Position numbers and translations under genes: made by a program
Notes under the pieces: model-generated
What the model was told of the DNA's origin: nothing
Seen by the model: only the letters and a program-made list of their open reading frames with translations
Database searches by the model: none
Virus record (IMG/VR): IMGVR_UViG_3300022188_000226
Coordinates: 1 to 64,000 of that record
Strand: one strand, 5' to 3'
DNA length: 64,000 nt
Source: a virus
Part shown: positions 1 to 51,656 of the stretch, piece by piece
Position numbering within the stretch: position 1 is the stretch's first letter
Layout: the number at the start of each line of letters is the position of its first letter

Positions 1-765
1 AGGGCTGGTTGGTGTAAGAGCTCTGGATTCGCAGGTACAAAGTTTGCTCTTGACTCAACACATAACGCTATTGAAGTTAAGCTAGGAGCAACAGTTAGTG
101 GAGTTAGTGATGGTTTTTATAGAATTATTCTAGAGCATAATGATGGTATTCCAATTGAGGCAGAAGTTGTGGCAGCAGATATAGAAACTAAAATTAGAGC
201 TATCGCTAACATGTTGGCTGATGATGACATTGGTTTTAAATTATCTTATATGAACGCATCAGTGGAATTTAAGGGTGGGCGTTTTTGGGTAGTTTCTGGT
301 TCTTTAGGGCAGTTTTATTCTGGTTCTAATAAGTCGTCTGTACAAGTAAGGTCGTCTGTCAACAGTTGTAGTGAGTTACTTGGTTTTAATCTAGATACTA
401 ATAGTGAAGACATAGATGGTCAGGGAATTAAAGAAGCTTTAGTACTGACAGATTATGTAGCTACTGCTAGTGGTGTTGGTCAGATTACAATTTCTTCTAA
501 TGTCGGGGCTCAGGTAAATGATTGTATGTTAATTACAGATAGAGTTAATTCAGAGTATTTTCAGATTGATAATATTATTGGTGGTACTATGATTGAATTC
601 GATAGTTCTAGGATTATTAATAATTACGAACAGTTAAAAACAAAGGTTCAGTTACTTAGAGAGCAAGATCCTGATGCAGCCCCAACACTTTGGTTTAATG
701 ATATAGACAAAATTCATAGACATGGGCTTAAAACTATGATTAATCAGATTGACTATAGTTCATAA
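1..765 (+). CDS. Virion-associated protein, 5' end outside window
   Basis: The frame is open from the first base, so this is the C-terminal ~254 residues of a longer protein. A GTG at 169 could be read as a start but has no good ribosome site, and the residues before it continue the same domain. The visible part starts with a beta-rich segment resembling the IN-type domains of flagellin and hook-associated proteins (pattern 'NAIEVKLG...DGFYRIIL...ADIETKIRAIAN'). The N-terminal part of the protein at 11699-13267 has the same layout. The end is hydrophilic with no membrane segment. A ribosome site (AAGGAAAA) and the next gene follow after 13 bases, so it is the first visible member of the structural operon. 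Tail or baseplate role is inferred from position and composition only. Confidence 0.6.
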   Translation, partial: RAGWCKSSGFAGTKFALDSTHNAIEVKLGATVSGVSDGFYRIILEHNDGIPIEAEVVAADIETKIRAIANMLADDDIGFKLSYMNASVEFKGGRFWVVSGSLGQFYSGSNKSSVQVRSSVNSCSELLGFNLDTNSEDIDGQGIKEALVLTDYVATASGVGQITISSNVGAQVNDCMLITDRVNSEYFQIDNIIGGTMIEFDSSRIINNYEQLKTKVQLLREQDPDAAPTLWFNDIDKIHRHGLKTMINQIDYSS

Positions 766-778
766 GGAAAAATAAATT

Positions 779-1276
779 ATGGCTCAGTATCTCCTTAGAA
801 ATATGCTTAATCCAGGAAAGGTTGTTGGTTGTAGTGTTACTTTTCGTCAATTAATTAATAAAGACGAAAAGGGAGAGACTGTGTGGCTTATAGAGGCGGT
901 AACTCCAGAACCACATAAAGATGGTACAGGGGATATACTTCCAGAGTATGTGCATTATACTGAGGATCAGAATTTAGATGTTGCTATTAATGAAGCTACT
1001 GAGAGGATAGCTGCTCAGGTTGATTGGGCCCCATTAACAAACGACTTAAGGCCACCATTTGTCGTAGATTATGAACCAAAAGCACCAATTGTTGGTATAT
1101 ATTCTGATGTTGTAGTTGTTATAAAAGATATTTTTCCTACAGGAGGAATTGATCCAGACAGTATAGAAGTTGTGATAAATAATATAGATGTAACTGATGA
1201 GATAAAATTGTTAGGGGACCCACTTCAATATAGTGTAATGTGGGGTCCTCCGATAAGAGTTTTTGATTACGAGTAG
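779..1276 (+). CDS. Small virion protein with C-terminal Ig-like fold
   Basis: A 165-residue protein starting at ATG, 13 bases after the previous stop, with an AAGGAAA ribosome site. Residues ~95-165 look like a bacterial Ig-like module ('SDVVVVIKDIFPTGGIDPDSIE', then a 'NNIDVTDEI' turn). A similar segment occurs near the C-terminus of the 934-aa protein at 3581-6385 ('GTGINIETLEILLNSRRIDV'). The Ig-like domain seems to stop part-way through its expected strands, so the gene may be short at its 3' end. Its end overlaps the longest possible start of the next gene. A tail or baseplate accessory role is inferred from the neighbourhood. Confidence 0.55.
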   Translation: MAQYLLRNMLNPGKVVGCSVTFRQLINKDEKGETVWLIEAVTPEPHKDGTGDILPEYVHYTEDQNLDVAINEATERIAAQVDWAPLTNDLRPPFVVDYEPKAPIVGIYSDVVVVIKDIFPTGGIDPDSIEVVINNIDVTDEIKLLGDPLQYSVMWGPPIRVFDYE

Positions 1277-1289
1277 GGGGAGGGGTTTT

Positions 1290-1673
1290 GTGATAAGGAA
1301 ATTGTGGAAAGAGTTATGTGTGGGTTTTGAGTATAGGTTTTTTACAGGGATACCATTTGAAGGCAGTTCTGATTTATATTCTTCTATGAATTCAGAAATA
1401 ATGCATTATGTACCTGCAGCAAATGAACTAATAGCGTTACGTATGGCTTCTGGTGCTAGAGTTTCCGGGTTTAAGTCTGGGGTGTTACTAGAGCCTTTAA
1501 AGATTAATAAGCTAGATATGGGTTTTAATATAGAATTTGAAATACCAATATTAATTATAACTGCGGTAAAGGATATTCCACTTAGAAAGGGGTTGTATAG
1601 CAATAGTAGTCTTTCAAAAGTGGTGGCTTGTATAGAGGAGGATAAGAAACCAGGTGTTTTTCTTTTGGGATAG
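1290..1673 (+). CDS. TPP-dependent decarboxylase-like protein, PYR-domain (alpha) half
   Basis: I chose the GTG at 1290 because a strong purine-rich ribosome site (GGGGGAGGGG) lies just upstream; a TTG at 1263 would overlap the previous gene and lacks one. The 127-aa product follows the N-terminal PYR domain of sulfopyruvate/phosphonopyruvate decarboxylases: 'FFTGIP' near residues 17-22, then 'VPAANELIALRMASGA' at 41-56, which in the family reads roughly VPAANEGxAVAxAAGA. Glu46 falls where the cofactor-activating glutamate lies. Next comes 'GVLLEPLKINKL' where the family has a QNSGxGN segment, so substrate or cofactor contacts have changed, then 'FEIPILIIT', matching the following beta strand. 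The next gene encodes the matching PP-type half, the usual order for two-subunit enzymes. Reaction and substrate are unknown, and activity is uncertain. Confidence 0.5.
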   Translation: MIRKLWKELCVGFEYRFFTGIPFEGSSDLYSSMNSEIMHYVPAANELIALRMASGARVSGFKSGVLLEPLKINKLDMGFNIEFEIPILIITAVKDIPLRKGLYSNSSLSKVVACIEEDKKPGVFLLG

Positions 1674-1681
1674 GAGTGGTT

Positions 1682-2314
1682 ATGCGAAGGTACACTGGAG
1701 TTAGAATACTAACTCAGGCGATTTTAGATTGTGATTTGGCTGTTTATATAGGTAAAGATGTATGTAAAGAAGCTTACCGATATAGACAACATGATAGTAA
1801 TTTGTATTTTTCTGATGAAGAGGAGGGACTAATAAGTTTTGCTTTAGGGATGGCTATTGGTACTGATAAACGCATATTTATATTTTGTGAAGACCAGTAT
1901 TTTATAAGAAATATGAGTGAGTTTATGCAAGCTGGTGTTAGTAAATGTAAAAATTTCGTTGTAGTGTTACTTGTTAGTGGCAGTTACACTAATGTTCCAA
2001 ACACTCCTTTAATATTTGATGAGGTTAATTCTCAGCACGGTATTTTGTATAATATGGGGTTTATGGTACATAATTATAGTAATTTTTTCAAACAGTATAG
2101 AAATCCAATTAAGCATATACGAGAGTTTTGGGCCAGAATTAGAGGACCTTTGGCAATATTATTATTTACAGATAACAGGAAGAAAGACTTTCAGGATATT
2201 GAGTTAAGTAAAGATATGATAGCGACAAAGGAGTTTATAAGAAATAAAGATATTAGTGGGTATAGTTATGTTCCACCATTTTCAATTGAAGGATTAGTTT
2301 TGGGGGGAGAATAA
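1682..2314 (+). CDS. TPP-dependent decarboxylase-like protein, PP-domain (beta) half
   Basis: The ATG at 1682 is preferred over GTG 1676 because TAGGAG ends five bases before it. The 210-aa protein resembles the C-terminal PP domain of sulfopyruvate decarboxylase beta subunits. 'FALGMAIGTDKRIFIF' (residues 53-68) matches the family's GLGLALAxPxRxVxVx segment. 'EDQYFIRNM' (70-78) sits where the metal-binding GDGSLLMNL lies, keeping the Asp but changing both glycines. 'NFVVVLLVSGSY' (91-102) sits where the family has N-x-x-x-x-x-LDN-G-x-Y, so the second metal ligand Asn is Ser99. The end has an alternating strand/helix pattern ('GPLAILLFTD'). With the preceding gene it makes a split TPP-enzyme pair, but the altered ligands suggest weak, changed or lost catalysis. 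It could serve as a structural or binding fold. Confidence 0.5.
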   Translation: MRRYTGVRILTQAILDCDLAVYIGKDVCKEAYRYRQHDSNLYFSDEEEGLISFALGMAIGTDKRIFIFCEDQYFIRNMSEFMQAGVSKCKNFVVVLLVSGSYTNVPNTPLIFDEVNSQHGILYNMGFMVHNYSNFFKQYRNPIKHIREFWARIRGPLAILLFTDNRKKDFQDIELSKDMIATKEFIRNKDISGYSYVPPFSIEGLVLGGE

Positions 2315-2317
2315 GGT

Positions 2318-3571
2318 ATGGCTTTTGAAAATATACGACTTAGAAAACAAAATTTTGCTGTAGTTGGGGGCTATTTCTGGACTGTAGACGATGATATAGA
2401 TAGCCTTATTGTAAAGACAGATGACGGTACACTTGCGTACTCATATCCATTAGATACTGTTATAGATAATGAAGTTATAAGTTTAGAATTTGACGGATAT
2501 AATATATGGACTCTTCAAAATATTGGTACAAACGCTGTTTCTATAAAGAGGTGGCATATAAATAATTATGTATGTACACTGAGAAGTACATTTGATTTTG
2601 TACCTGGTCCGTCACATAAGTATAGTGCTTATTGTTTTACAGTTGAGCATTACCACACAGAATTTTCTTCAAATGCGTCTGCTGGTTCTCAAATTCTAAG
2701 TATCCTTGAAACTGGTAAGATGGAGAGTGGGTTTACTTTAGTTCTAGGGCCAAACCATTTAGGACAGATGGAGGAGGTTAGTGTTAGTTCTGCCAGTGGA
2801 GGGTCAGCCCAGATAAATGGAAGTATTTTATATGAGTATAATGCGGGAGCACCTATATCTTTTTATAATAGAATATGGTTGTTTAATAATTATGATGGTA
2901 CTGATTTTAGTACTGGTGCTTTATACCATATAGACGCCTATACAGGGTCTGTTGTTACTAAATATCCAGGTGGGGCTTATAAAGACATTGGAGCGTGTAC
3001 ATTTTTTGACGTTCCGAAGTATATTTTTGATAGAGCGGTAGGTACTGGAGTTACAGATCCTAGATATAATTCTATATGTTATGTTAAGGGTAACAATATG
3101 TTGTTTCTTAATCCAGATGATTTAGTCAACAGTAACGGTTCAATGACTATGGATAATATTGAGGATGATCAGGCAACTAATATTCCAATATATGATCTAA
3201 CTATAGAAGGCACAAATGTTTACCGTTTGCAGTCGAAAGCTACTTATTACGGTTCAACTTCGGACTTTGTAGGTACATACAACTATCAGTTATCCTCGTT
3301 AAATCCGTTTATTACAAGTATTAGTTTGAGGGCAAACCCAGCAATATTACCAGCTAACGGGGTTAATCCATCGATCATTACAGCTATTGTTAAGGACCAG
3401 TTTAATTTGCCTGTTGAGCAACGTCAGGTATTCTTTACAGATGATGACCCTAATGGAGCTATTACATCATCACCAGTTAATACTAATGCAGATGGTATAG
3501 CTGTAACTACCTATATAGCAGGTACGTCTGCTAGAGAGGTAAGAATAACTGCCACAGCACAGCAGGCATAA
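2318..3571 (+). CDS. Virion protein with C-terminal invasin-like (Big_1) domain
   Basis: A 417-aa protein with ATG three bases after the previous stop and a GGGGGGAGAATAAGG leader. Residues 1 to ~330 form a beta-rich domain shared with the next protein: both have 'IKRW' near residue 80, an 'LYHIDAYT'/'LFKIDAYT' strand and a 'NMLF' motif. Residues ~335-417 fit a bacterial Ig-like group 1 (invasin/intimin) domain: 'SLRANPAILPANG', 'TAIVKDQFNLPV', 'GIAVTTYIAG', 'VRITATA'. No signal peptide or membrane segment is seen, as expected for a virion part. The pair with the downstream gene is a tandem duplication in which the second copy gained extra domains. A tail spike or fibre-like accessory role is inferred. 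Confidence 0.6.
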   Translation: MAFENIRLRKQNFAVVGGYFWTVDDDIDSLIVKTDDGTLAYSYPLDTVIDNEVISLEFDGYNIWTLQNIGTNAVSIKRWHINNYVCTLRSTFDFVPGPSHKYSAYCFTVEHYHTEFSSNASAGSQILSILETGKMESGFTLVLGPNHLGQMEEVSVSSASGGSAQINGSILYEYNAGAPISFYNRIWLFNNYDGTDFSTGALYHIDAYTGSVVTKYPGGAYKDIGACTFFDVPKYIFDRAVGTGVTDPRYNSICYVKGNNMLFLNPDDLVNSNGSMTMDNIEDDQATNIPIYDLTIEGTNVYRLQSKATYYGSTSDFVGTYNYQLSSLNPFITSISLRANPAILPANGVNPSIITAIVKDQFNLPVEQRQVFFTDDDPNGAITSSPVNTNADGIAVTTYIAGTSAREVRITATAQQA

Positions 3572-3580
3572 GGATAAAAG

Positions 3581-6385
3581 ATGGCTCACGAGAATGTAAT
3601 GTTACAACAAAGTAATTTTTGTATGGGGCCTCAAGCAGGTACAGTGTGTTCTATTGATACAACTAACCCGAAGACTGTATTAAGGGTTAAAAATATGACC
3701 GGAGCAACTATAATAGATTTAGAGTTGTCGTCTAATATACTGAACGACAATGTGCGTGTGGAGTATGTTGGCCCACCAACCTTGGACGGAGTACATGATG
3801 GGCTTACTTTTTTCACATTTGAGAAGGTCAGTGATTCATCTTGTATGATTAAGAGATGGGAAACACGTATTGCTTATAGAGAGCTTCTTCTAAAAGAGCA
3901 AGTTGTAAAGAGTACATCCGGAAACGAAAGATATAATGCCATAGATTTTGCTGTGGAATATTATTATAGGGCTTTTACAAGGTCAAACGAACAGTATAAT
4001 TATTTAGAAATGAATAGTGTGTTTAATGTTAAGAATAGCACAAGGCTTTTTTTCGGTCCAAGTACTGATACAGATAATATAGGAGCAACAGAGGTAGGTG
4101 TTGTTAGTCATATAATAGATCATATAGACGGTAAGAGAGTATATTTAACCGCTCCTCTTAAGTACCAGTATGTTATAGGGGATTTAATTACTTTTTACAG
4201 TAATATATATATCTATAGTTCTGAAGGGTATGCTGATGACCCAAACAAAGGTACTCTGTTTAAGATAGATGCTTATACGTGGGATACAAAGGAAATAGAT
4301 ACTAAAGCTATTTATAAGCGAGCTAACGCCTCTAGATGGTGTCCAATGGTTGGCGGTATAGCCACAATTATTGGACATAATATGTTGTTTGTTAGGCCAT
4401 ATGATGAGTATTTAAATTGGCGTTCTATGTTTTTAAATAATGTGATGTCTGACAATAATACAATATTTACAGTATATGATGTTGGATTTGATAACTATAG
4501 TATTTATAAGTTGCAAGGTATGACAACTTTGGTGGATGATACTAATAAAAAAACAACACATGATTGGGATAGTTACAATTTACAACCAGATAGTCTGTTA
4601 CCACATACTCAGTCAGTAGCTACTTGGTTAGACCAATCCATAATTACAGGGTATAATAAAAATGTGGATATATATGCCCAGGTTAGAGACCAGTTTTATG
4701 TTGGGCTAAGAGATGTTTACTTGACTTTTTATATGCTAGGTGATGGTGACGCGTTGTTTGACCCTTTAAGTGGTAATGTTGTTACAGATTTAAACGGAAA
4801 GGCTACTATAAATTACAGATCAGGTCAAACTTATAATGGACACACTGAGATAACAGCTAGAGCTACTGGGGGGTCAACATCAACAGGAAGTGCTTATGTG
4901 TGGACTTCTAATAATGTAATAAGTTATCCAGAAACAGAACCAATTAAAATACTATTGTGGGCGATATTTTATATTTCAGCTTATAATCCTAGTTTGAAAC
5001 AGATAATACAAATTTATAGTGTATTTAATCGAGAGGAAAATCCTCAGTGGAGAGCCCCGTTTTATACTTTAAGGGGTTCACATTATTTTACGTCGCCTGG
5101 AGGTAATTGGTCACCAACTAAAAAGCTTAAAGAGTATGAACCTGAGTATGTTGGTGGTGGTGGGAGTGTATTAGAGTATTTGCCTATGTTATACGAAGGT
5201 GAAGATCATTTAGATGCTCCGGCCTGTCTTTCCCCTGGTTATGGGTTCGAGTATCCATCCCCGTTTCCTGATGATTTCGAAGATGGGGAGTTTCTTTTCA
5301 GTAATAGAATTACAGTATTTGAAGAATTAAAGAGTAAGTTTTATACATTTGGTTTAACTTATTATTTATTATATAAAGGTAGTAGTGTGGGTCAAGTACC
5401 TTTTGCAGTTATAGTACAGCCAGATGAATCTGGAAATGGACAAATAAGTCAGTTGAAATTAAGTTTACATACACATTGGGTTGATGGTTTACCATATGAT
5501 GAGTTGTGGACATATTCTAATATAGATCAATTTGTTTTTGTTGAAGATGCAGTGCCTAAATTTTGGAGTTCAAAAAATCTTCCAGCTACAAATATTTGGG
5601 TCAGACTAAGACCATTTGCGTTTAGTTTGAATAATTCAACATTAAGAATGTGGGTTAGAGAAGACTCTTATTTGAGCGATACGGGGTATTGTGAAGTAAC
5701 TGATAGTATACAAATAGTTAATTTCGACGCCGGCGGTGGAATGTTAGGTATAGAAATTACATATAACCCAGTAGTAGATTTTAAATATGGTTCAACAGTT
5801 TATGTTAGAATAGAAGTATACGATATTGCACATGTTTCTAATTATATTTTTACAGAATATTGGTTTAGAATTGTTCCTGATTATAAGTCTCCTTACGTTA
5901 GTTATATGGTTCCAGACAATGGGGAAATAGATGTTTCAGTGGATAGTCATATTTATTTTGAATTGAAAGATGAAGGAACAGGTATAAACATAGAAACCTT
6001 AGAGATTTTATTAAATTCTAGACGCATTGATGTGAATTATTTAACCATTGAAGAAGTAAGTAGACGTCATTTTAAAATTACTTATATTTCACCAGAAGGT
6101 CTTTTTTATAATAAAGATTATAAGATAGCAGTCAAGGTGGAAGATACTTCATCAAGGAAAAACGCACTTAATACTTCGTGGGAATTTTATACAGTAGAGA
6201 GTACTGGTGTTCAGATGGTGTTACCAACTCCAGGTCCGTGTAAGGCGGGTATGAATAGGTTTGAGGATGTAAGTGTTGTAATTTTAGGGGATGGTAATGG
6301 AGTTGATAAGGACACTATTAGAATGCAAGTATTTAATAAAGATATACATTCTAGAATTACACCTATTATTTATAGGGTATCTTAG
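3581..6385 (+). CDS. Large virion protein with Big_1-like and Ig-like domains
   Basis: A 934-aa protein starting nine bases after its shorter paralogue. Residues 1 to ~345 repeat the paralogue's N-terminal domain. About 350-430 is a Big_1-like module ('DIYAQVRDQFYVGLRDV', 'NGKATINYRSG', 'TEITARATG'). About 440-740 is an unassigned beta-rich region. About 765-875 is an Ig-like domain ('SPYVSYMVPDNGEIDVSVD', 'GTGINIETLEILLNS'). The last ~50 residues look like the start of another Ig-like domain that stops early. The stop codon is inside TAGGAGA, a ribosome site that now precedes an inserted element rather than a start codon. Probably a tail or baseplate adhesin; exact role unknown. Confidence 0.6.
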   Translation: MAHENVMLQQSNFCMGPQAGTVCSIDTTNPKTVLRVKNMTGATIIDLELSSNILNDNVRVEYVGPPTLDGVHDGLTFFTFEKVSDSSCMIKRWETRIAYRELLLKEQVVKSTSGNERYNAIDFAVEYYYRAFTRSNEQYNYLEMNSVFNVKNSTRLFFGPSTDTDNIGATEVGVVSHIIDHIDGKRVYLTAPLKYQYVIGDLITFYSNIYIYSSEGYADDPNKGTLFKIDAYTWDTKEIDTKAIYKRANASRWCPMVGGIATIIGHNMLFVRPYDEYLNWRSMFLNNVMSDNNTIFTVYDVGFDNYSIYKLQGMTTLVDDTNKKTTHDWDSYNLQPDSLLPHTQSVATWLDQSIITGYNKNVDIYAQVRDQFYVGLRDVYLTFYMLGDGDALFDPLSGNVVTDLNGKATINYRSGQTYNGHTEITARATGGSTSTGSAYVWTSNNVISYPETEPIKILLWAIFYISAYNPSLKQIIQIYSVFNREENPQWRAPFYTLRGSHYFTSPGGNWSPTKKLKEYEPEYVGGGGSVLEYLPMLYEGEDHLDAPACLSPGYGFEYPSPFPDDFEDGEFLFSNRITVFEELKSKFYTFGLTYYLLYKGSSVGQVPFAVIVQPDESGNGQISQLKLSLHTHWVDGLPYDELWTYSNIDQFVFVEDAVPKFWSSKNLPATNIWVRLRPFAFSLNNSTLRMWVREDSYLSDTGYCEVTDSIQIVNFDAGGGMLGIEITYNPVVDFKYGSTVYVRIEVYDIAHVSNYIFTEYWFRIVPDYKSPYVSYMVPDNGEIDVSVDSHIYFELKDEGTGINIETLEILLNSRRIDVNYLTIEEVSRRHFKITYISPEGLFYNKDYKIAVKVEDTSSRKNALNTSWEFYTVESTGVQMVLPTPGPCKAGMNRFEDVSVVILGDGNGVDKDTIRMQVFNKDIHSRITPIIYRVS

Positions 6386-8058: not shown

Positions 8059-10101
8059 ATGGCTGTTGTTATTACATCAAAATTTTATCAAGAAAGTGAG
8101 TGGAAAGACATTTCTAAGATTGTCTTTACAAGTCCAAATATGGATAGTCCAGCCATAGCTGGAACTAGATCCCATATTCTTCCTGGAGAAGGTAATTTAG
8201 GAACTTGGTATGAGGACACCTCAGAGATGTTTCGTATAGAGGACCATCAATTTACTACTGAGTCAGATTTTTATAATTACCGTATGGTAGCGAAAGAAGA
8301 TACCGATTTGCAAGTTGGGGCAGGTTATATAGATGTAAAAAGAGTTAATTATAGTGGGTTTGATACATATGTAAAAGAGAACACTGGGGTGGAGATAATT
8401 GGGTATAGTGACGGTACTGGTTTTATTGTAGATCGTAAAACTAAACTGGAGTATACTCCACATCAGAAAAATTTGAACGAAATTCATAGTCGGGTAGACA
8501 AAAAGGTTACCGAGATTACACTCATAGAAAAAGCTACTTGTACTGATGGTTTTTCCACATCAGTCGGCGTTTTACGTGAAGAGTCTTATGCTAGAAATTA
8601 TGGTTGGTACACTCAGGTAATTTCTGAATTTTCACAATGTCATATAACATTTGAGTTTGAGGATACAACTAAAATTACTGCTGTAGAAATGAGTAGTGTG
8701 GAATTTGAATTTATCGAAAGGACTTGGGATTTTGCACCAACAGATTCTTGTTACGATATAGGAGTTCCAGATGGAGAAGCTGTAACAAACAAAGTTTATT
8801 TTATAGGTAATTATACAATACAGGGTAGTATAGACGACATTAGCTGGACTACTATATATACAGGGTCTAACACAACTAACTTAAGTAAATTTATTTATCT
8901 TAGTAATAATCAGTATTATAAATACTATAGATTAAACATCACTAATAATTCTAGTTTAAGCAGTGGGGTGTTTGACACTAGTTTTTACGGAGTTAGGAAG
9001 CTTAGATTTTATAATTATGAGTTTTCTACAGATGCTGGTAATGAGAGTATTGCGTTGTATGAATTTAATAATTTAGATGCTCCTAAAGTAGTCAGGATTA
9101 GTAACGCTTATCCACAAGAAGCCGCTATTCCAACAGTTACTAATGAAAGTACAGATAACAACGTGGAAGGGGCAATGATGTTAAGACATACTACTGTTTC
9201 TGGTGAACCAGTATCGTCTTCTTATTCTGTAAGTCTCAGCAGTTACGTAGATCCGTATGATTATATGATAACTGCAGTTTGTGTTTCTTCCACAGTAAGT
9301 GGTTTGGGTGAAGATTCTGTTGGTCAGACATATGCTAAGCAGGATAAAATAAACGTTGTTGTTGACGCAGCATTGGAATTTATGGATGTTGGTTTAGATA
9401 GCGAATATGTATTGTTTACAGCACAAGGATCCGCTGTGGTGCAAGTGGATACTGCTAATTGGGTAGGTGAGGATACTATTACTTATACTACAATTGCGTC
9501 AGGTACTGTTACTTCTGGTACTCAAACATACCCATTAACTGGCTATACAACACGTTATGTAGAGTCCTCTTTATATGCAAGGCGTGAAAATTTTAGATTA
9601 GTAATAGACGAGTACATAACCAACAGTGGTATTGTTGCTGAAAATGAGCCTCTATATGTTTGGGGGTATAATGATAGGTTTCTTGATTTAGATGTTAAGA
9701 ACGCAGTAGTTTTTGAAGTTACAACAGGTGAGGCTTATAACTGTAGATTAACTGCGTGGGATGATGTTACACACAGTACAACAATAAATGAATTAATACA
9801 AGGTGACCACGTTAGGTGTTCGGCTATGACCTATTGTTGTAATGATAGTAAGCTAAATCCAACAGAGTCTAAATCGCCTTTAAACTTAGTATACCCACCA
9901 GTGCATAATAGAATTTTTAAAGGTAATGTAGAGATTGGGGGAAATAGATATTATTATGGCGATTTTGATCTTGTATACAGATATCAATCTGATGTGTATG
10001 GAGATTATTTAATATTTAAACCAATGCTATATAATATTACTACTGATATTTCATACGGTATACATGATTATATTATAACATTACATTATTCATATACTTA
10101 A
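8059..10101 (+). CDS. Virion protein with discoidin-like (F5/8C) module
   Basis: A 680-aa protein starting at ATG 8059 with GGGGGTGG upstream. Around residues 215-320 it has features of an F5/8 type C domain: 'ITAVEMSSVEFEF', 'YTIQGSIDDISWTTIY', 'YKYYRLNITNNSS', and a closing 'RKLRFYNYE' strand. These folds commonly bind carbohydrates or surfaces. The C-terminal ~150 residues carry an 'L-x-AWDD' module shared with the protein at 6905-7567. The remaining regions are beta-rich and unassigned. Proposed role is a receptor-binding or decorating tail protein; the domain call is from motif pattern only. Confidence 0.55.
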   Translation: MAVVITSKFYQESEWKDISKIVFTSPNMDSPAIAGTRSHILPGEGNLGTWYEDTSEMFRIEDHQFTTESDFYNYRMVAKEDTDLQVGAGYIDVKRVNYSGFDTYVKENTGVEIIGYSDGTGFIVDRKTKLEYTPHQKNLNEIHSRVDKKVTEITLIEKATCTDGFSTSVGVLREESYARNYGWYTQVISEFSQCHITFEFEDTTKITAVEMSSVEFEFIERTWDFAPTDSCYDIGVPDGEAVTNKVYFIGNYTIQGSIDDISWTTIYTGSNTTNLSKFIYLSNNQYYKYYRLNITNNSSLSSGVFDTSFYGVRKLRFYNYEFSTDAGNESIALYEFNNLDAPKVVRISNAYPQEAAIPTVTNESTDNNVEGAMMLRHTTVSGEPVSSSYSVSLSSYVDPYDYMITAVCVSSTVSGLGEDSVGQTYAKQDKINVVVDAALEFMDVGLDSEYVLFTAQGSAVVQVDTANWVGEDTITYTTIASGTVTSGTQTYPLTGYTTRYVESSLYARRENFRLVIDEYITNSGIVAENEPLYVWGYNDRFLDLDVKNAVVFEVTTGEAYNCRLTAWDDVTHSTTINELIQGDHVRCSAMTYCCNDSKLNPTESKSPLNLVYPPVHNRIFKGNVEIGGNRYYYGDFDLVYRYQSDVYGDYLIFKPMLYNITTDISYGIHDYIITLHYSYT

Positions 10102-10117
10102 TTGGAGAGAATAGCTT

Positions 10118-11680
10118 GTGCCAGATGATACTAGTCATGTATGGGTTGATACAACATTTATACCACCAGTGGATGAAGAGTTAGATGTTCCAGTACAGGT
10201 ACATCTTGCTAATAGTGAAAATATTGGAAGTTACTCTATGCCTGTTATTTACTCTCAACATGAGCTTAGATATGCAGCAAATGATGTATTAGTAGCATAT
10301 TTTAATGAGTTAACTTCTATTAGTGGTTTAGAAAATGTTGCTGGTGAATATTTTGCTTTTTATCTCCCTATGATTTCAGGGGTTGAGGTTGCACTAACAG
10401 AGTTTACTGCGGGACAAAAAGATTTGGAGTTTGGGGTTGATGCTCCTGTTATCTACACAACCGGATTTAATTCTGTTTCTGGGACATTAAACGAATTAGT
10501 TGTTTTTACTGGGGGTAAAGAATTTCTGGCAGTAGACAACATTCCGGCTTATTGTAGAACATCAGTCTCTGTAAGTGGAATAATGGAATGGTGGGTTAAC
10601 CACACTAATTTTAGTGGTAACTTAACAAATAGTGGTATACCTATTCCGTTTCATTTAGGAGAGTATAGTTATCAGACAAGGTATAGTACTGGTTCTACAG
10701 CAACTTCTGGGTTTTTAGATAATATTGTTGATATAAGTTTTGCTGGTTGGGTAGGTTTTCCAATGTTAGCGGATGTCTGTTCGTCGGATGAAGGTTATAC
10801 ATTTGGGTATACAAGTGAAGTTACAGCCATTAGCGGTGCAGTAGATGTTAATTATACAGATACGGTTTGCTCGTTATTAACTACAAGTGGCATAGACACA
10901 GATATATATTGTGCTCTTACGGACTACGCACATGTTGGTGGTGAAGTTGAAACAATTAAAGGAAAATTAGGGTTTTTATATGAAGATGTTTATTCAACAA
11001 TAGAAAATGAAGTTGCTTTAAAATTAAATATAGACCTACTTTCATTAAAGATATCTAATTTTTCACTAAATGAGGGGGAGTTTGTAACTAGTTCTGGCTT
11101 TATATCTGTGGATGTAACTGATGACGAATGTCCAGTATCTGTTTCAGGAACTTATTTTATGGTTGATAATGTTAGGGTTCTTGTAACGTTTTCTGGAATA
11201 AAAGATGGGTATAGAATGTATTACAACCCAGAGGATGACTTTGGTTCTATAGAAGGGCCAACTACTTTCACAGTTCATGCAGAAAACGAGTGTGCTGCTG
11301 TTTTAGAAATGGATTATTATCTAACCTTTGGTTATATAGTAGAGTATGAAAATAATCCTACTGTTGGTATGGATTATGGTTTTTATAATAAAGTAGCTGT
11401 AAGAGTGACTGCTGAAAATTATGCGAGTTGCCCAAAAGTTGGGTCGTTAGCATGGGATTTTAAAAGTGTAGGGCTTAAAAATAATGATTTAGGAGCTAGC
11501 ATTGTAGGAAGGTTTTATGCTTGTGGTGATGAAAATTTGTCAGCTGAAATTTATCCGCACAGTACTGCTTACTTTTACAGTAAAAAGTTTACTGTTGTGG
11601 TTAAAGCTAAAGATTTTGCTGGTAATGAAATGGAGCCTTTCGTTTTGAGTTATAAAATCGAGAATAAGCCTGAAAATTGA
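10118..11680 (+). CDS. Virion protein with Ig-like segments
   Basis: A 520-aa protein starting at GTG 10118 preceded by TTGGAGAGAA. The sequence is rich in Ser, Gly, Thr and Val with alternating beta strands. A segment near residues 330-400 ('GFISVDVTDDECPVSVSGT', 'GIKDGYRMYY') and the C-terminal 100 residues ('FTVVVKAKDFAGNEM') look like bacterial Ig-like folds. The recurrent 'SG' pairs ('TSGI', 'VSGT', 'ISGV') also occur in the neighbouring structural genes. No enzymatic motif is visible. Probable tail or fibre component. Confidence 0.55.
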   Translation: MPDDTSHVWVDTTFIPPVDEELDVPVQVHLANSENIGSYSMPVIYSQHELRYAANDVLVAYFNELTSISGLENVAGEYFAFYLPMISGVEVALTEFTAGQKDLEFGVDAPVIYTTGFNSVSGTLNELVVFTGGKEFLAVDNIPAYCRTSVSVSGIMEWWVNHTNFSGNLTNSGIPIPFHLGEYSYQTRYSTGSTATSGFLDNIVDISFAGWVGFPMLADVCSSDEGYTFGYTSEVTAISGAVDVNYTDTVCSLLTTSGIDTDIYCALTDYAHVGGEVETIKGKLGFLYEDVYSTIENEVALKLNIDLLSLKISNFSLNEGEFVTSSGFISVDVTDDECPVSVSGTYFMVDNVRVLVTFSGIKDGYRMYYNPEDDFGSIEGPTTFTVHAENECAAVLEMDYYLTFGYIVEYENNPTVGMDYGFYNKVAVRVTAENYASCPKVGSLAWDFKSVGLKNNDLGASIVGRFYACGDENLSAEIYPHSTAYFYSKKFTVVVKAKDFAGNEMEPFVLSYKIENKPEN

Positions 11681-11698: not shown

Positions 11699-13267
11699 AT
11701 GAGTGCTGTAACGAGATGGGTAGAATATGCTGTTGACGCTGCAGGAATTGCAGGAACAGGTGGGGGTACCCAAGAAGGAACCGGTATCCGTGGTTATTCA
11801 TTGGCAACTGGTGCTACAGATAAGTCTAAATTTCAAATTGGAGCCGGGAATAATCGATTACACTTAGGTATAAATGGGGATTCGGCTTATATTACTTTAG
11901 CAAGTGGTATTGACCTTGACCCACGTTTTATCGCGAAAGATATTAGTGAAAAGTTGCATAATTTAGGTAAGAATGACCCTTCTTACGACCAATCACAATG
12001 TGTTTGGGAAAATAATAGGTTGAAGTTGTATTCAGGAAGTTTAGGTTCAAGTTCGTCTGTAACAGTTACTAGTGGTACTAATACTGCACATACTGAACTT
12101 GGTTGGGGGTCTAAAACAGAAGTTGGGGGGACTAATAATAACCCAGCAACTGGCTCTCTTAATCAGTATAACGGTGGATTGACCGTGTCAGGTACGTATA
12201 GTGGATTTTTTGATGAAGTTTATACAGTTGTTATTCATAATGGTTGGACAATTAACACTCCTGTTAAAGGAGGGTCTAATTCTTATACAGGTACTATTTC
12301 TACAGGTGGTATTTTTAATCATACTTCTGATATTACGTATACTATATATACCGATACTACAAATGGTACGACTATGGGTGGTGGATCTGGAAACGTTCCT
12401 AAGATGTCTTGGATATCAACTGGTAATGCAGATAATAGTGGTCAGGATGTAGAGTTACTTTATCCGAATTATTGGTATAAGTTGGGGACTAAAGGAACTA
12501 TGGTTAAGTTTACTGATGCCGTGTTTAGTCATAACCAGTCACCAAACAGTGCGTGGACAATTGATTGTGTGTTCCCACAGACAACACATGGTTCGAATTC
12601 TCAGGGGTCTGACGGAGATGCTAGATATGTTTGGGGGAGTACACGTGGGGATGATTCTGGAAATAATCCAATTGTAACAAGTAATTCGACTTTCACACAG
12701 CTTGGTAGTAGGGGTTTATATATTAAAGCTACTGGGGCTAATATGTACAAAGCCGGTGATCAATTTAAAATAGTGTGTACCCCACCACAGCCTAAATCAT
12801 ACGAGATCACTAATTTGAATTATGGAAATGTGACGGTTTCAACAGAAGCTGCTGTTAAGTCAGTAATTTTTGAAATAATGTCGGGTGCTATTGAAATGAG
12901 CACTGTAAAGTTCGGTTTACAGAGTCATGGTTCTTTCGAGCACCATAATGAAAATAATTCAGATACTTTTTTTAGATTTGGAACAGTGGGGCCTGGGCAG
13001 TCAGCTGGCTCATTTCCTGTTGATGGGTTGGAGTGGCACGCGAACACACAGTCTTCAGATATCGCAAATGATATTCCGCCAACATATTTACATGCAACAA
13101 AAGCAAATTTAGATGTTGTTTCAGATGCTGATGATTCTGAAGTAATAGGTTCAAGTAGTTTTATGGGAATGGTTTCAGACCCCATTTTCTTGAATATAAA
13201 ACTCGGTGCTAGTGAGGTCGGGGCTAATAGTACAATAAATTATCGCATCTTTTTTGATTATTCGTGA
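11699..13267 (+). CDS. Virion protein with hook-protein-like N-terminal module
   Basis: A 522-aa protein with a strong AGGAGG ribosome site and ATG 11699. Residues ~40-150 have a flagellin-IN-like pattern: 'NRLHLGINGDSAYITLASG', then 'RFIAKDISEKLHNL', then 'NRLKLYSGSLGSSSSV', then 'TELGWGS'. The first gene of the window shows the same order. The rest is Gly/Ser/Thr-rich and beta-rich, ending in a compact domain. It is the last member of this structural block; the next gene is a homing endonuclease after a 115-base gap. Tail structural role inferred. Confidence 0.55.
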   Translation: MSAVTRWVEYAVDAAGIAGTGGGTQEGTGIRGYSLATGATDKSKFQIGAGNNRLHLGINGDSAYITLASGIDLDPRFIAKDISEKLHNLGKNDPSYDQSQCVWENNRLKLYSGSLGSSSSVTVTSGTNTAHTELGWGSKTEVGGTNNNPATGSLNQYNGGLTVSGTYSGFFDEVYTVVIHNGWTINTPVKGGSNSYTGTISTGGIFNHTSDITYTIYTDTTNGTTMGGGSGNVPKMSWISTGNADNSGQDVELLYPNYWYKLGTKGTMVKFTDAVFSHNQSPNSAWTIDCVFPQTTHGSNSQGSDGDARYVWGSTRGDDSGNNPIVTSNSTFTQLGSRGLYIKATGANMYKAGDQFKIVCTPPQPKSYEITNLNYGNVTVSTEAAVKSVIFEIMSGAIEMSTVKFGLQSHGSFEHHNENNSDTFFRFGTVGPGQSAGSFPVDGLEWHANTQSSDIANDIPPTYLHATKANLDVVSDADDSEVIGSSSFMGMVSDPIFLNIKLGASEVGANSTINYRIFFDYS

Positions 13268-50419: not shown

Positions 50420-50552
50420 ATTATACAGGAAAAGGTACCTGCAAATAAACTGGTCATTGTAGGGTAGATAGACATTTATATACGGAAGAGGTAAGTTAAT
50501 AACTCACGATTAGTGTTTATAGTTGAGTATTAACAAATTATATTTAATATTT

Positions 50553-51656
50553 ATGATTATAAGAGAACTAAAATTACGATTAACAACCAAGCAGAAAAGA
50601 TTACTTAATCAGTGGCTATTCAATTTGACTGGGGTGTATAACTGGGCGATTAGAAAAATTGAATTAAACGCCCAAAATGGGGTTTATTTTAGTAAATTTG
50701 ATTTTGCTAACAGTTTACCGAAGCATAGCAGAACACTTGAAGTTCCATCCCATACTGTCCAGGGTATTTTGAATCAAGCTTATACAACGTGGCAACGGTG
50801 TTTCAAAAAGATTTCTAAACAGCCTAAATTAAAATCTGTTAGGAATAAATTGAATTCGATTCCGTTTCCAGATCCAATTCCTTCAAATAGATTAAAAGAT
50901 AGACTTATTAGAATTCCAAGATTAGGCTGGGTGAAATTTTATAAACAAAAGCTTCCTGATGGTATAATTAAGAATGCCAGGATTATCAAAAGAGCTTCTG
51001 GCTGGTACCTTCAGTTAACCATAGATACAAATTATAAGTTTCCAGTGAAGAAAACTAGTGCCAAGGTTGGAATTGATACTGGTTTCAAATATCTAGCAGT
51101 TCTTTCTGACGGTATAAAAATCAGTAACAAACGGCACCTCGTTAAAGGTCAGAAACGTTTAGCTCAAGCTCAGCGTGGTAAACGAAAGAAACTAACTGCC
51201 CGTTTACACGAACGAATTAAATTTAGACGAAGAGACCATAATCATAAGGTTTCTAGATATATTGTGGAAGATTATTCGGAGATTTACATTACAAATGATA
51301 ACTTAAAAGGACAGTCTAAAATCTTCGGAAAGTCTATTTCAGACGCAGGTATTTCCCAATTAAGGCAATTCATTATCTACAAGAGTGACATTCACAGTAG
51401 GAAATGTTCCTTAGTTGATTCAAAATACACCACCATGACTTGCTCGATTTGCGGAGCCAAAACTGGCCCCTCAGGATTGAGCAAGCTTGTTGTAAGGAAC
51501 TGGGAATGCAGTGCTTGTGGGGCACAGCTCGATCGCGATCTTAACGCGGCTAAAGTAATTCTCTATTCCGGGCTGGGATACAGCCTCGATAACGTTAAAA
51601 CTCACGCCTGTAAAGGGCCGGAGAACTTTAAACTGGAATCATCGGGAGGTGTTTGA
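50553..51656 (+). CDS. tnpB: TnpB (IS200/IS605 type) with altered RuvC-II catalytic site
   Basis: I take ATG 50553 (367 aa); the N-terminus 'MIIRELKLRLTTKQKRLL' matches the family and the remnant at 59297. TnpB is the RNA-guided nuclease of IS200/IS605 elements. RuvC-I Asp175 is present ('KVGIDTGFKYLAVLSDG'), as are a Cys4 zinc ribbon (Cys297, Cys300, Cys319, Cys322) and RuvC-III Asp329 ('DRDLNAAKVI'). In the RuvC-II strand the family reads about 'DLIVVEDLNVKG', whereas here it is 'SEIYITNDNLKG', putting Thr247 where the catalytic Glu should be. Spacing to Asp329 (82) fits that alignment. Glu239 and Glu243 are near but out of register. The stop overlaps the clamp start (TGATG). Probably nuclease-dead, perhaps an RNA-guided binder; decay is the alternative. 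Confidence 0.75.
   Translation: MIIRELKLRLTTKQKRLLNQWLFNLTGVYNWAIRKIELNAQNGVYFSKFDFANSLPKHSRTLEVPSHTVQGILNQAYTTWQRCFKKISKQPKLKSVRNKLNSIPFPDPIPSNRLKDRLIRIPRLGWVKFYKQKLPDGIIKNARIIKRASGWYLQLTIDTNYKFPVKKTSAKVGIDTGFKYLAVLSDGIKISNKRHLVKGQKRLAQAQRGKRKKLTARLHERIKFRRRDHNHKVSRYIVEDYSEIYITNDNLKGQSKIFGKSISDAGISQLRQFIIYKSDIHSRKCSLVDSKYTTMTCSICGAKTGPSGLSKLVVRNWECSACGAQLDRDLNAAKVILYSGLGYSLDNVKTHACKGPENFKLESSGGV
51540..51656 (+). ncRNA. Candidate omega-RNA scaffold at the tnpB 3' end
   Basis: TnpB guide RNAs normally come from the 3' end of tnpB. Here the last ~115 bases include a hairpin GGCTG/CAGCC (51571-51585) inside a longer TTCCGG/CCGGAG pairing (51566-51571 with 51618-51623). The stretch is richer in G+C than the gene body. 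The guide would read into the clamp gene start, but the right boundary cannot be fixed from one copy, and this tail differs from the other two copies in the window. Confidence 0.3.

Follow-up and report, generated by a model that had tools for sequence, protein, structure and literature searches.

The closest described counterpart of the genes reported here is RhiEF of Bacillus subtilis ATCC 6633 (PDB 9IZ3/9IZ4), a heteromeric phosphonopyruvate decarboxylase of a phosphonate pathway that holds TPP at its subunit interface and whose PYR and PP domains are encoded by separate, adjacent genes (PMC12141560). ComDE (TIGR03845/TIGR03846), of the coenzyme M pathway, is likewise split into alpha and beta subunits, and so is AzcB/AzcC, a TPP-dependent alpha-imino acid decarboxylase (PDB 9u8q-9u8s) with separate PYR and PP proteins. 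Viral TPP-fold proteins include acetolactate-synthase-like (Hyperionvirus, ChoanoV1) and transketolase-like (Campylobacter phages) forms; those of Hyperionvirus and ChoanoV1 were the only convincing viral fold matches that we recovered (E = 2-3e-4) and are full-length enzymes, and no split pair in a tail module was present among the viral predicted structures searched. The literature covered by our search, from which subscription papers were mostly absent, contained neither a phage pair of the RhiEF/ComDE type nor a TPP-enzyme fold in a tail module.

Here we describe two phage genes, gpA and gpB, which resemble RhiEF in being separate, adjacent PYR and PP genes, but differ from it in that the GDG motif and the Asn ligand have mostly been lost, the NSG motif has been lost in all members, no PEP mutase accompanies them, and they are located in a tail operon. 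The protein family itself is thus a known one, and what is new is its setting and fate in phages. The window, that is the whole stretch of DNA that was analysed, corresponds to the initial 64 kb of an IMG/VR virus record of 116,257 bp, and its left end cuts a gene of the tail module (Table 1).

Table 1. Features of the window at and around the gpA/gpB pair
Feature	Position	Strand	Basis
up1, tail-module neighbour on the upstream side, truncated at its 5' end by the record	1..765	+	22 IMG/VR loci, 32-63% identity
up2, small conserved neighbour; before the pair in some phages, after it in others	779..1276	+	gene-order map
gpA, PYR-domain (alpha-subunit-like) protein, 127 aa, RhiE/ComD homologue	1290..1673	+	Pfam, profile, AF2/Foldseek
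Codon of gpA Glu46 (within PAANE), at the TPP-activating glutamate position	1425..1427	+	15-orthologue alignment
gpB, PP-domain (beta-subunit-like) protein, RhiF/ComE homologue	1676..2314	+	sulfopy_beta, profile, AF2/Foldseek
gpB EDQ, aligned with the GDG metal/pyrophosphate motif	1889..1897	+	orthologue alignment
gpB Ser, aligned with the metal-ligand Asn	1976..1978	+	orthologue alignment
Big_1 (Ig-like) domain protein, tail-fibre-like, directly 3' of the pair	2318..3571	+	PF02369 E=1.5e-12
Second long Big_1/Big_5-like protein, tail module	3581..6385	+	weak PF02369 and PF13205 matches

Homology of gpA and gpB to split TPP enzymes

Taken singly, gpA matched the Pfam model TPP_enzyme_N at E = 0.008 and gpB the NCBIfam model sulfopy_beta at E = 1.1e-5; this single-sequence evidence for a TPP-enzyme pair is modest, and it is the comparison across the family that is decisive. 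Profiles built from 15 phage orthologues matched RhiE (PDB 9iz3_A; E = 2e-12) for gpA and RhiF (PDB 9iz3_B; E = 1.1e-9) for gpB, and RhiEF was the best match of both proteins in sequence as well as in fold, at an identity of about 12-21%. The sulfopy_beta model was matched by 14 of the 15 gpB orthologues, at best with E = 1.3e-21 over the full length, and a phosphonopyruvate decarboxylase model by 13 of the 15 gpA proteins. AlphaFold (AF2) models of both proteins, built from six-sequence alignments, were compared with the PDB using Foldseek, and again the top matches were 9iz3_A for gpA (E = 1.5e-6, probability 1.00, TM 0.79 on the query) and 9iz3_B for gpB (E = 4.4e-8, probability 1.00, TM 0.58; pLDDT 76.5). 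The score of the gpA model overstates how secure it is, since the mean pLDDT of 87.7 belongs to the top model only and the other four lie at 42-55; the fold that it predicts is nevertheless in agreement with the sequence evidence. Hence the original prediction, which had taken the two genes for the PYR and PP halves of a sulfopyruvate/phosphonopyruvate decarboxylase and had looked to profile searches and structural models of each protein for a match to the TPP-enzyme fold, is supported on both counts. gpA and gpB are accordingly members of the TPP-enzyme fold superfamily, representing respectively the PYR and the PP half of split TPP-decarboxylase homologues. The possibility that the two genes are a recent duplication of one another was rejected because the PYR and PP profiles share no significant match, and no second TPP-enzyme copy beyond the pair was found in 20 phage records, which may be fragments.

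By curated cut-offs, by the cofactor motif of the window and by pathway context, the pair lies outside both PPDC and ComDE. The ComDE models were matched by 11 of the 15 gpA and 14 of the 15 gpB proteins (best gpA E for the alpha model, 1.1e-11), with scores that stayed far below the cut-offs, at best 77.3 against 221.5 bits for beta and 37.8 against 147.95 bits for alpha. None of the 20 records passed the TIGR03297 cut-off of 312.5 bits (best 86.6; gpB of phage L019, 82.8), a model built on single-chain enzymes whose cut-off split subunits could hardly reach in any case. Significant profile matches to AzcB/AzcC were in the range E = 0.0024-0.0036, and this system is biosynthetic, non-viral and equipped with cofactor motifs, unlike the phage pair. 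PEP mutase (PF13714), a companion gene envisaged in the original prediction, was searched for and found in 0 of the 20 phage records, and ComA (PF02679), which the coenzyme M pathway of ComDE would lead one to look for, likewise in 0 of these 20 possibly fragmentary records. The phage of the window encodes a DegT aminotransferase, along with Asp/Glu racemase and sulfotransferase genes, about 60-80 kb from the pair. Nothing links the sugar or cell-surface type genes of this phage to gpA or gpB.

As regards gene boundaries, gpA starts with GTG at 1290, with GGGGGAGGGG just before it. The gpB product would have 212 aa from GTG 1676 or 210 aa from ATG 1682; the latter is the likelier start, because it is preceded by AGGAG and because the relatives begin with MKRY. 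Around the pair, the stretch showed no promoter or terminator signals that exceeded chance.

The tail module and its phages

Single-sequence searches of IMG/VR with gpA, gpB and up2 returned no relatives, and the family was reached through the Big_1 neighbour (two related phages), then through alignments and then through up1 (22 loci), itself a protein that matched no known family. Profile searches placed the pair in 15 distinct phages, with the near-identical L025 and L026 counted once. Among cultured phages no relative of the window's gpA/gpB, up1 or Big_1 protein was found, and genome contigs scanned with gpB and with up1 gave no match; the gpB of L019 had a single tblastn match, at 28% identity, in MT836947, an unannotated 8.2-kb record labelled 'Bacteriophage sp.'.

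In all 15 phages gpA and gpB are adjacent, in constant order, between up1 and the first Big_1 gene, which is kept in every pair-bearing phage; the gene order is either up1-up2-A-B-Big_1 or up1-A-B-up2-Big_1. In a relative, G002 (IMGVR_UViG_3300035698_007036, corresponding to L038/L039), an 8,048-aa ORF at 32474-56620 that matches a tape-measure PHROG (E = 5e-14) heads the up1/Big_1 gene row upstream of the pair, and this marks the row as a tail-tip module. The location of the pair within a tail gene cluster, as originally proposed from the window, is thereby borne out, and it holds for all 15 phages. In one phage, L029, up1 is doubled (9734-10777 and 11815-12792) and the two copies flank the gpA/gpB pair, which is perhaps a trace of insertion or movement of the pair.

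A tree of up1 and Big_1 separates the clade of the 15 pair-bearing phages from a sister clade of five pairless phages by one fully supported branch, such that the distribution of the pair amounts to one gain or one loss on this tree. In the pairless phages the slot is either empty or occupied by a gene that, judged by eye, is LAGLIDADG-like; such genes lie between up1 and up2 in L031 (10948-11448), L034 (10771-11694) and L035 (4096-5028). We considered whether these genes, of 167, 308 and 311 aa respectively, are copies of the pair that have fused or diverged, and rejected this, as none of them is matched by the family profiles; on inspection by eye we read them as LAGLIDADG-type, homing-endonuclease-like genes.

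Tail length usually scales with the length of the tape-measure protein. If this holds for G002, its tail would exceed 1 micrometre, and the uncultured phage group that bears the pair is predicted to have very long tails. The predicted tail of G002 would then be longer than that of P74-26, which at nearly 1 micrometre has been described as the longest known (PMC10034513). In G010 (L040/L041), the apparent tape-measure position (5319-31006) is covered by two long overlapping open frames, 4,534 and 4,056 aa in length and out of frame with each other, which looks like a frameshift, a sequencing error or a split gene.

Other features of these phages were observed in passing. Sulfotransferase-like and Asp/Glu-racemase genes (L002 15171-16492) are situated within a large sugar-type cluster. 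Apparent inteins, recognized by eye, interrupt two glycosyltransferases, a DNA polymerase and a ribonucleotide reductase in the phage of the window (L002 429-2981 and 3632-7228; L003 5663-10102 and 11423-16258). Three near-identical tandem-repeat genes, one of them much shorter (L004 6692-8083, 10352-11755 and 17181-17558), share the repeat unit 'LDNPNAYGTS...SVAISG(N/D)KCIVGA', with repeat-number variation or recombination between copies as possible causes of the difference. TnpB-like (IS200/IS605) genes were seen, also by eye, at 50523-51656 of the window, at L002 10885-12256 and at L012 6606-7865.

Cofactor site and selection

The gpA of the window has Glu46, and its gpB has EDQ instead of GDG and Ser instead of Asn, the Ser being residue 99 counted from ATG 1682 and residue 101 counted from GTG 1676. 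The original reading of these two replacements was therefore correct; its statement that the activating glutamate is kept holds for the window but not for the family, in which this position is E in only 10 of the 15 gpA proteins, D in two, while I, A and G occur once each. An intact GDG is present only in the gpB of L019 and GEG in those of L009 and L033, the other 12 displaying xDx; at the metal-ligand Asn position these same three have N, 10 others have S or T, L006 has Cys and L023 has Glu. In 12 of the 15 phages neither of the GDG glycines nor the Asn survives, and in all 12 a single Asp (Asp73) is invariant. Among these degenerate members the conservation of the Glu position is at the 47th percentile and that of the GDG glycines at the 69th and 20th, against the 97th for Asp73 and the 98th for Tyr104, which is located three residues past the Asn position. 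The NSG motif of the alpha subunits of RhiE and the cellular enzymes was absent, by eye, from every gpA.

By the usual criteria, then, 12 of the 15 cofactor sites are degenerate with respect to TPP, yet they have not been erased outright: an acidic residue, a small and polar one and a tyrosine are still there. These retained Asp, Ser/Thr and Tyr residues could represent a structural helix cap or a remodelled metal or ligand site; the presence of Asp73 in all degenerate members, with the Asn mostly replaced by Ser or Thr, suggests that a metal or cofactor site may persist. At the other end of the range, L019 retains Glu, GDG, DN and SGG-like residues and L009 and L033 retain Glu, GEG and DNG, and since their cofactor motifs are near-complete the ancestor, and perhaps these three members too, could be active. 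In the tree of gpA and gpB a grouping of these three as one clade has a p-AU of 0.135, so both single and repeated loss of the motif are compatible with the data; if the motif cannot be regained, the tail-gene tree requires at least two losses.

The dN/dS ratios were obtained from L012 versus L020, the sole degenerate pair of phages with unsaturated dS, the others being saturated or near-identical, and were 0.30 for gpA, 0.22 for gpB, 0.22 for Big_1 and 0.08 for up1. The values for gpA and gpB indicate that both are maintained under purifying selection. Neither gene has an interrupted reading frame in any of the 15 phages, and C10, G20, P42, G55 and F79 of gpA and D20, G26, G58, S89, N93 and P158 of gpB are invariant throughout. 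In 104 of 105 comparisons gpA and gpB were each less identical than Big_1, and such faster divergence of the pair than of the neighbouring tail genes is compatible with host interaction no less than with a structural role. The gpA and gpB tree and the tail-gene tree agree in their main clades, as is expected under vertical inheritance.

Possible roles of the pair

The lack of PEP mutase and ComA in the 20 records, together with the degeneration of the motifs in 12 of the 15 phages, makes an ordinary phosphonate or sulfonate enzyme unlikely, and the loss in most members of the residues that hold vitamin B1 suggests re-use for another job. Of the options originally set out, we find reuse of the fold, in binding or in a structural capacity, the most fitting; the others were that the pair may be a virion-carried enzyme or one with an altered cofactor. 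The explanation that we consider best, and to which we give about even credence, is that gpA and gpB, as the two subunits of a branch of RhiEF/ComDE-type proteins peculiar to phages, form a non-catalytic, tail-linked heteromer derived from a captured split TPP enzyme. An ancestral phage would have captured a two-gene decarboxylase-like enzyme between its tail genes; gpA and gpB would continue to associate, probably in an alpha2beta2 heterotetramer, since the TPP-enzyme fold is built in this way; and in most lineages the cofactor chemistry would have been lost and the assembly kept. The pair would then act late in infection as a non-catalytic module produced together with the tail proteins, and its former cofactor pocket, with Asp73 and Ser/Thr, possibly binds a small ligand or a metal. 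This presumed co-production and pairing into a heteromer suggest a tail-tip, assembly or adhesion role, the likeliest job being that of a part of, or an assembly factor for, the adjoining tail tip/adhesion apparatus. The specific reading that the pair is a tail component or assembly module, in which the catalytic interface of a two-subunit TPP enzyme became a binding or structural heteromer along a series from near-intact to degenerate members, is put forward tentatively and could well be wrong. A position among tail genes is no proof of a tail role, given that some pairless phages have homing-endonuclease-like genes in this very slot.

That slot, along with the occurrence of the pair on either side of up2 and its rapid divergence relative to Big_1, would also be in keeping with an accessory insert at a site of mobile genes, encoding a late, host-directed pseudoenzyme whose binding target is a host protein or metabolite and which serves as a decoy, in counter-defence, or to regulate a TPP enzyme or the 2-oxoacid pool of the host. 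We regard this as rather unlikely, given that all 15 sampled members of the clade have the pair, as two genes in constant order, with no sign of a promoter of its own. A working late-phase enzyme, using TPP or an altered cofactor to decarboxylate or ligate a 2-oxoacid, with its place in the tail operon incidental and its product, for example, a building block for the phage's own glycan or nucleotide-sugar genes, would account for the near-complete motifs of L019, L009 and L033, and the window phage carries DegT aminotransferase, Asp/Glu-racemase and sulfotransferase genes; Asp73 is moreover kept in all degenerate members, where Ser or Thr could substitute for Asn as a metal ligand. Against it stand the loss of the GDG glycines and Asn in 12 of 15 members and of the Glu in 5 of 15, the lack of NSG in every gpA, the missing PEP mutase and ComA, and the distance of about 60 kb to the glycan genes, such that this too seems unlikely to us. 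The loss of motifs in several lineages and the high divergence might even be taken to mean that an auxiliary metabolic enzyme, captured once, is decaying as a passenger under relaxed selection; with both frames open in every phage, a dN/dS of 0.2-0.3 at unsaturated dS and residues invariant in all 15 gpA and gpB proteins, we consider this very improbable.

Should the non-catalytic heteromer prove to be structural or host-binding, the pair would clearly exemplify the recruitment of a two-subunit metabolic enzyme into an operon of virion genes, and its near-intact intermediates would let the loss of catalysis be reconstructed. If the near-intact members are instead active, they would represent a TPP enzyme placed under the control of a tail operon, and hence an unexpected form of phage metabolism.
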